Shown here piece by piece: positions 48,047 through 48,657 of a stretch of 64,000 bases of DNA. The position numbers and the translations under genes were made by a program. A model generated the notes under the pieces. That model had not been told where the DNA came from and made no database searches. It saw nothing but the letters and a program-made list of their open reading frames with translations. Within the stretch, counting starts at the first letter, position 1; the number at the start of each line of letters is the position of its first letter. The stretch is taken from assembly GCA_030603385.1 (NCBI GenBank), contig JAUVXW010000004.1:1-64000 (forward strand), written 5' to 3'. The stretch is from Promethearchaeota archaeon (GTDB lineage: Archaea; Asgardarchaeota; Lokiarchaeia; Sigyniarchaeales; SOKP01).

Positions 48047-48055
48047 AAAAAAAAA
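48047..48055 (-). terminator. T-tract terminator after the SECIS element
   Basis: Nine T residues in a row on the minus strand, about ten bases after the SECIS-like stem. T-rich tracts end archaeal transcripts. The position suggests that the selenoprotein message carries the whole element in its 3' part. Confidence 0.5.
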
Positions 48056-48065
48056 GACGAGTAAT

Positions 48066-48136
48066 TTCCCAGAACCCTTGCAAGGTTGTCATCATGTGCC
48101 AATCATTTATGCACATAAATCATTCTTATCTGGGAT
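48066..48136 (-). promoter_or_regulatory. SECIS-like RNA element (selenocysteine insertion)
   Basis: It starts a few bases after the stop of the peroxiredoxin-like gene, in its 3' untranslated part. An outer stem is CCCAGA (48134-48129) with TCTGGG (48073-48068). Within it, on the RNA, AUGA (48123-48120) faces UGA (48091-48089), giving tandem G.A and A.G pairs. Above these, UUAUGUGC (48118-48111) pairs with GCACAUGA (48099-48092) over eight pairs (one U.G). The apical loop AUAAAUGAUUG contains an unpaired A run. AUGA/GA core plus apical A residues is the eukaryote-type SECIS design, reported also for Lokiarchaeota. A small hairpin (ACCUUGCAAGGGU) lies within the 3' side of the outer stem. Hand-folded only. 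Confidence 0.7.
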
Positions 48137-48141
48137 ATTGA

Positions 48142-48657
48142 TTATAAATGTTTTTCGATTGCTTCAACAATTAATTCTATTGATGGTCTATCTGTTTTTG
48201 CCCCAATATATTGCCACACTATGTTTCCTTCTTTATTAATAAGAAATTTTGATGGTATAGCATGACTTATTTGTAATCCATCGTGTACCGCAGACTTTCT
48301 ATCTAAGAAAACATTATAGGCCTTACTAATTCTACCAGCTCGATCAGTAATAAACTGTATTTTATAGTTATTTTTGTACTTCATTTTTATTAGTTTATCA
48401 GGAAGATCTATTGCGATAGATATTAGTTTGACATTATTTTTTTTTAATATTGACAAGTTTTCATTTAGGTAATTGAGATGTTTTTTACAATGAATTCACC
48501 AACTTCCACGAAATAAATCAAGTAAAATACCTTTATACTTTTTTAGCAATTCAGTTAAATTTATGGTATCACCATCTATATCTTCTGTGTCAATCATAGG
48601 TGCTTTAGTTCCTAATGGTAAACCTTTATTTGGTGTTGAAATATGCAATTCTGTCAT
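48142..48657 (-). CDS. Peroxiredoxin/thioredoxin-like selenoprotein (TGA at 48496-48498 read as selenocysteine)
   Basis: Read through one in-frame TGA, the gene encodes 171 residues from ATG 48655-48657. The segment is LLDLFRGSW-U-IHCKKHLNYL, where family members have FFRGSWCPxCxxHL. The TGA thus sits exactly on the first cysteine of the CxxC redox site, making UxxC. Upstream are GLPLGTKAPMIDTEDIDG and downstream KLISIAIDLPDKL, FLDRKSAVHDGLQ and IPSKFLINKEGNIVWQYIG, all typical of AhpC/TSA-type proteins. The frame is otherwise intact on both sides. A SECIS-like element follows at 48066-48136. It probably reduces peroxides or disulfides. A nonsense mutation is the alternative. Confidence 0.85.

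Follow-up and report, generated by a model that had tools for sequence, protein, structure and literature searches.

The locus at positions 48142–48657 (minus strand) of the window, the 64 000-nt stretch of lokiarchaeial DNA analysed here, is best explained as a gene for a selenocysteine (Sec)-containing UxxC enzyme of thioredoxin fold, in which UGA codon 54 would be decoded through a SECIS element that forms a three-way junction of the helices P1, P2 and P3; we place the probability of this joint explanation at roughly 0.92. The support for the selenoprotein reading is computational throughout. The earlier note on this DNA had proposed a true selenoprotein, and all of the computational tests are in its favour: the in-frame TGA is conserved among the homologues, the SECIS covaries and the genome encodes Sec machinery.

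The reading frame and its homologues

The frame extends on the minus strand from an ATG at 48657 to a TAA at 48144–48142, specifying 171 residues, and its single interruption is the TGA at 48498–48496, which as Sec54 lies within the sequence FRGSW-U-IHC. The earlier observation of one TGA in an otherwise intact frame is confirmed, and the expectation that annotation would split the gene in two was borne out: ordinary ORF calling yields pieces of 67 and 104 aa. A lone in-frame stop on a MAG contig, with the frame split by ORF callers, could be the mark of a nonsense-mutated pseudogene or of an assembly error, but this is a very improbable account of the locus. A protein search (E ≤ 1e-20) found homologues in 40/83 genomes of the class, and 59/59 of them carry the in-frame TGA; moreover, the orthologues within the genus are 94–81% identical across the whole frame, and the structured 3′ element is kept. 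According to the earlier note, Cys-free relatives with scattered stops and no 3′ hairpin would have spoken against a selenoprotein; what we find instead is a TGA in every homologue and a conserved SECIS.

Several of the homologues encode UxxU, and some genomes contain tandem pairs: in relatives of the window genome (L046, L028/L056 and L030/L050), a UxxC gene is followed by a UxxU gene, and each of the two has a separate SECIS. The SECIS elements of four UxxU genes (L047, L053, L055 and L057) are without most of P1, although P2 and P3 are kept. The window genome itself has a second Sec-containing paralogue, 50% identical, at C4:199780. A search of viral contigs found no relative of the peroxiredoxin (Prx)-like gene.

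Protein fold and redox site

When the UGA is read through, the 171-aa product matches the Pfam family AhpC-TSA (PF00578) at 1e-19, and also Redoxin, whereas its NCBIfam match, to the ResA-type oxidoreductases, is under the cut-off. The best match among solved structures is likewise ResA, with residue 54 aligned on the first Cys of the WCxxC motif; this bears out the proposal that the TGA stands at the first Cys of a redox site, giving UxxC. Across 26 homologues, the U/C54 and C57 columns are invariant. An AlphaFold2 model, calculated from an input alignment of 26 sequences (the window protein and homologues from the class), has a pLDDT of 92 and adopts the thioredoxin fold, with Sec54 at the N-terminus of helix 55–66; the top Foldseek matches of this model are the Bcp4/AhpE peroxiredoxins. 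The fold is, thus, held in common with both ResA/TlpA and PrxQ/Bcp, but the window protein has Sec in place of Cys.

Two more specific assignments were considered and rejected. The protein is not a typical peroxiredoxin, as the PxxxTxxC peroxidatic site is absent and the site reads FRGSWUIHC; nor is it a member of the SelL-related family NF040769, for which it scores 38 bits against a cut-off of 120. The UxxC/UxxU Prx-like motif is, nevertheless, common to the SelL-related redox proteins (NF040769) and the window family. Going by the ResA alignment, the protein would work like a CxxC thiol oxidoreductase: the enzyme would form a selenenylsulfide, with Sec54 as the attacking residue and the redox chemistry proceeding through U54 and C57.

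The SECIS element and its third arm

The element (48061–48137, minus strand, as are all of its parts) starts 4 nt past the stop codon. Its lower stem, P1, opens with the 5′ strand UAUCCCAG (48130–48137), followed by the AUGA of a kink-turn-like core (48120–48123) and the 5′ strand of the upper stem P2, UUAUGUGC (48111–48118). The apical loop, AUAAAUGAUUG (48100–48110), presents a conserved AAA at 11 nt from the AUGA, and is closed by the 3′ strand of P2, GCACAUGA (48092–48099). Next comes the core GA (48089–48090), opposite the AUGA, with which it would form tandem G.A pairs, and then the accessory hairpin P3 (48073–48087; AACC-UUGCAAG-GGUU), the loop of which contains GCAA, a GNRA sequence. 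The 3′ strand of P1, CUGGGAAA (48065–48072), completes the junction, with CUGGGA being paired. Past the element, there is a T9 tract (48047–48055), which is a probable transcription terminator. All of the parts of the hairpin that the earlier note had drawn by hand are, therefore, present (the outer stem, the AUGA/GA core, the eight-pair helix, the A-containing loop and the T tract), the G.A pairs among them being predicted.

In an unconstrained calculation, the minimum free energy (MFE) fold of −20.6 kcal/mol contains CCCAG/CUGGG, the 8-bp upper stem and the P3 hairpin; it also has a possible 3-bp ministem, which is absent from the centroid. As evidence, this single-sequence fold is modest (z −1.43; 19/200 shuffles are equally stable) and would be weak alone; it is the covariation of the homologous elements that makes the hairpin decisive.

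To describe this covariation, a covariance model, R1, was built from 46 aligned elements of Prx genes, and 58 elements were then realigned with it, which corrected the placement of P1, wrong for one clade in the MAFFT alignment. Protein search had located the Prx genes, whereas the 46 training elements came from a pattern demanding the CC/GG of P3, with four added by hand. The window element is a full-length match to R1 at 83.9 bits, and is itself one of the 46 training sequences. Conversely, neither the window nor the element matched the Rfam SECIS families at the gathering score or at E ≤ 10, such that the covariance search advocated in the earlier note succeeded with our own model and returned nothing with the Rfam SECIS families. 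The AAA of the apical loop is invariant in the 46 elements, as are G13, A15, G17 and A18 of the alignment row, and the core GA is present in 57/58 Prx elements.

The pattern of pairing indicates that the window SECIS is a three-way junction, in which P1 and the P2 kink-turn arm are joined by P3 directly 3′ of the G.A core. P3 is part of the model with which every set used to assess it was collected or fitted, and the figures are to be read accordingly. In the 58 Prx elements, 95% of the cells of P2 are paired and double changes are seen in 8/8 pairs, the corresponding values for P3 being 87.5% and 2/4; double-change cells number 204 against 78.6 in shuffles, and slid-partner controls for the whole structure leave 30–51% of cells paired. 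In 84 non-Prx elements, which were selected by the P3-containing model, P3 is 89% paired, with double changes in 3/4 pairs. A further set, A7, comprises 19 more distant elements, some drawn from further families within the class and the rest from two families elsewhere in the phylum; it lies outside the training set, but was found and aligned with the P3-containing model, and here P3 is 88.9% paired with 4/4 pairs double-changed (AU to CG or GC, and CG to UA). Indeed, all 20 pairs of the structure show double changes in A7, for which the slid-partner control gives 36–42% paired. The stem of P3 is 4–5 bp long and its spacing from the core is nearly constant. Additionally, the 18 nt past the core are 14.0 sd (Prx) and 15.8 sd (non-Prx) more stable than shuffles, and the P3 loops carry GNRA in 33/56 Prx and 56/83 non-Prx elements (89/139 together).

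A simpler description, in which the element is a plain eukaryote-like type I SECIS (P1 and P2) as published and the internal loop happens to fold into an additional hairpin of no relevance, has some points in its favour: the published Asgard model is without a third helix (PMC11227280), a single apical loop is given for the Lokiarchaeal element in the review PMC9499178, and the inner P3 pairs (CC/GG) are without double changes in the Prx elements alone. We consider it improbable, however, as P3 is 88–89% paired in three sets, against 28–51% for the slid whole-structure controls; the double changes extend to three of its four pairs in the non-Prx elements and to all four in the more distant ones; and the steady spacing, the stability of 14–16 sd and the recurrence of GNRA loops would not be expected of an incidental fold. 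A still smaller chance attaches to P3 standing outside the SECIS as an element in its own right, for instance a terminator hairpin. At the window locus, P1 and then the T9 tract do come after P3, but P3 is enclosed by P1 and lies directly past the G.A core across several gene families, it persists in four Prx elements that are without most of P1, and a stem of 4–5 bp is short for a terminator. The three-way junction is, thus, the preferred description, and the characterization of the SECIS as eukaryote-like in the earlier note stands in part: the AUGA/GA core and the A-rich loop agree with the eukaryotic form, whereas the third covarying arm, which had been overlooked, is unlike it.

Selenocysteine machinery and a proposed mechanism

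Contig C41 of the same genome carries a tRNA-Sec (63 bits, UCA anticodon), with SepSecS (486 bits) ∼70 nt downstream of it and EFSec ∼5 kb from this pair. The EFSec profile PF21131 had no match in any genome searched and is hence uninformative; EFSec was, therefore, identified through TIGR00475 and by comparison with the PDB, where archaeal SelB (4ac9; 1.3e-74) ranks above human eEFSec (2e-50) and EF-Tu (2e-30). There is also a candidate PSTK, for which the best family is TIGR03574 (148 bits, under the cut-off of 290.5). Hence, at least three components of the Sec machinery are present in the window genome, and the search for them that the earlier note had called for was answered by tRNA-Sec, SepSecS, EFSec and the candidate PSTK, where an absence of machinery would have counted against a selenoprotein. 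The search for SelD in this assembly, which is 94% complete, yielded five weak AIR-synthase-like matches and no SelD. The best of these scores 87 bits with TIGR00476 and 89.7 with HypE, and it was not accepted as SelD because the HypE score is slightly higher; the true SelD of a relative scores 197. The missing SelD may reflect either a gap in the assembly or loss of the gene. A Sec-containing SelD is present in relatives (L120).

The machinery also bears on whether UGA has been reassigned generally (for instance, to Trp or Cys), or is read through without Sec. UGA stops are scarce in the window (2/45 long open frames), as such a reassignment would predict; yet some long frames do still end at UGA, the genome has a dedicated tRNA-Sec, SepSecS and EFSec, and a covarying SECIS accompanies the UGA-containing genes found here. 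We, therefore, give reassignment hardly any weight, and return to Sec insertion at codon 54.

In the mechanism that we envisage, EFSec would deliver Sec-tRNA-Sec to UGA codon 54, which would thus be decoded as Sec, under the direction of the SECIS in the 3′ UTR. The kink-turn of eukaryotic SECIS elements is bound by SBP2, and, by the same token, P2 may be bound by a putative kink-turn protein of the L7Ae/L30 type. P3 could stabilize or orient the junction, or it might offer EFSec or the ribosome a further point of contact. No SBP2 is reported for Asgard archaea (PMC11227280).

Comparison with known SECIS systems

In work by Mariotti from 2016, Asgard Prx-like selenoproteins were reportedly described with eukaryote-like SECIS elements. 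Such selenoproteins and elements have been published for Lokiarchaeia (Huang 2024, PMC11227280), so that the window gene adds a member to a known family, with which it shares the clade, an AhpC/TSA-like protein, Sec in a redox motif and a type I SECIS in the 3′ UTR. The published Asgard model consists of a core, an upper stem, an apical loop, an internal loop and a lower stem; in type I, the quartet is 5′-GA_[G/A]A-3′ (usually AUGA_GA), the upper stem has 7–15 bp with at most two mismatches, and the apical loop has 8–20 nt and no ministem (PMC11227280). The window quartet (AUGA, 48123–48120; GA, 48090–48089) fits this type, and the upper stem of 8 bp and apical loop of 11 nt are inside its limits. 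The difference resides in the internal loop, which is plain in the published type I; in the window element, its 3′ side is instead the covarying hairpin P3. This hairpin is undescribed in both the PMC11227280 model and the review PMC9499178, although the 2016 study may hold an earlier description.

Eukaryotic SECIS elements have in common with the window element the AUGA/GA quartet, unpaired A's 11 nt above it, two stems and a location in the 3′ UTR; they are without a third arm as described in PMC11227280, whereas the window element has P3 and no Rfam match. The euryarchaeal SECIS also lies in the 3′ UTR, but is characterized by a bulge of GAA opposite A (PMC9622424, PMC11881835), and inspection of 48137–48061 reveals no such bulge. 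Its hairpin, which is short, clamped by GC pairs and capped by a small loop, does, however, resemble P3 in size, and by this analogy P3 may be a remnant or counterpart of the euryarchaeal hairpin, with the Asgard element joining both ancestral halves.

The Asgard SECIS provides the main evidence on how eukaryotic Sec insertion arose from archaea. If the element is three-armed, comparisons with the eukaryotic SECIS have relied on an incomplete structure, and constructs based on the two-stem model may be without a functional part. A lokiarchaeal SECIS proved non-functional in M. maripaludis (PMC11881835); that a two-stem design explains this failure is speculation on our part.

Distribution of the element and two candidate selenoprotein families

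R1 has matches in 77/83 genomes of the class (E ≤ 0.5) and in 79/228 genomes of the phylum (E ≤ 0.001), including those of two families outside the class (f26 and f28), and some of these matches lie 3′ of the known Sec genes VhuD, HdrA and SelD. The window genome has seven R1 elements below an E of 1e-6, belonging to the gene described here, the second Prx gene, two VhuD genes, HdrA and a gene of family A (see below), with one unexplained. This seventh element (L129, G000:C53:12134-12217; 38.6 bits) follows a protein of unknown family that ends ...AEDCE-TGA.

It seems likely that the lokiarchaeial SECIS constitutes a distinct, three-armed class of RNA, and that its model exposes selenoproteins missed by homology surveys, here a zinc-ribbon protein and membrane proteins with a U-x-C motif. 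R1 would, thereby, allow Asgard selenoproteins to be discovered without known homologues: these two families are off the current lists, and one of them is a 37-residue protein with a terminal Sec. PMC11227280 lists seven Asgard families and PMC13188914 discusses archaeal ones; neither of the two is among them, and both are apparently undescribed so far.

The 37-aa zinc ribbon (family B) has the form MIFCLNC...EGYYYCxxC...FTLRFKU, with Sec as the last residue; a TAA or TAG codon (TAR) stands immediately after the TGA, and a three-armed SECIS lies 20–30 nt downstream. A search of 84 980 genomes with a protein pattern, and without reference to the SECIS, gave 18 loci, all in Lokiarchaeota. Seventeen are true members, and 17/17 have both TGA+TAR and an R1 match, the frequency of TAR in the flank being 6.4%; the eighteenth is weakly similar and has neither. 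The pooled pN/pS over the members is 0.33, and the named records with relatives of the zinc ribbon are all Candidatus Lokiarchaeota/Lokiarchaeia MAGs. The family is represented by loci L201–L217, and also by L105–L107, L110, L113, L119, L141, L143, L145, L149, L152–L155, L172, L179 and L182. In L107 and L113, the zinc-ribbon gene adjoins a divergent gene of 347 aa (leucine-rich-repeat-like in L113); in L113, this is followed by a gene for a MinD/CooC-like ATPase, and the gene order in L107 is similar.

Family A comprises small proteins that cross the membrane once and have a Gly-rich stretch, followed by a SECIS (L118, L121, L125 (C20:5915 in the window genome), L142, L144, L156, L159, L163, L164, L166, L167, L170, L174, L183, L186, L191, L194, L195 and L199). 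Comparison with Pfam gave nothing, and comparison with NCBIfam gave matches at chance level only. The family is supported by its SECIS and by a conserved U-x-C or U-xxx-C motif, present on inspection in 19/22 members. It is less certain than family B, because the test for purifying selection on the sequence past the UGA does not reach significance (Fisher p 0.13). The topology may be reminiscent of the eukaryotic SELENOK and SELENOS.

Lastly, three loci of a single family of the same order (f3; L219, L221 and L225) encode a protein of ∼97 aa with a UCG motif and a SECIS. This protein weakly matches NF041239 (CC/Se motif (seleno)protein, Moor_selen_rel); the published list for Asgard archaea does not include it.
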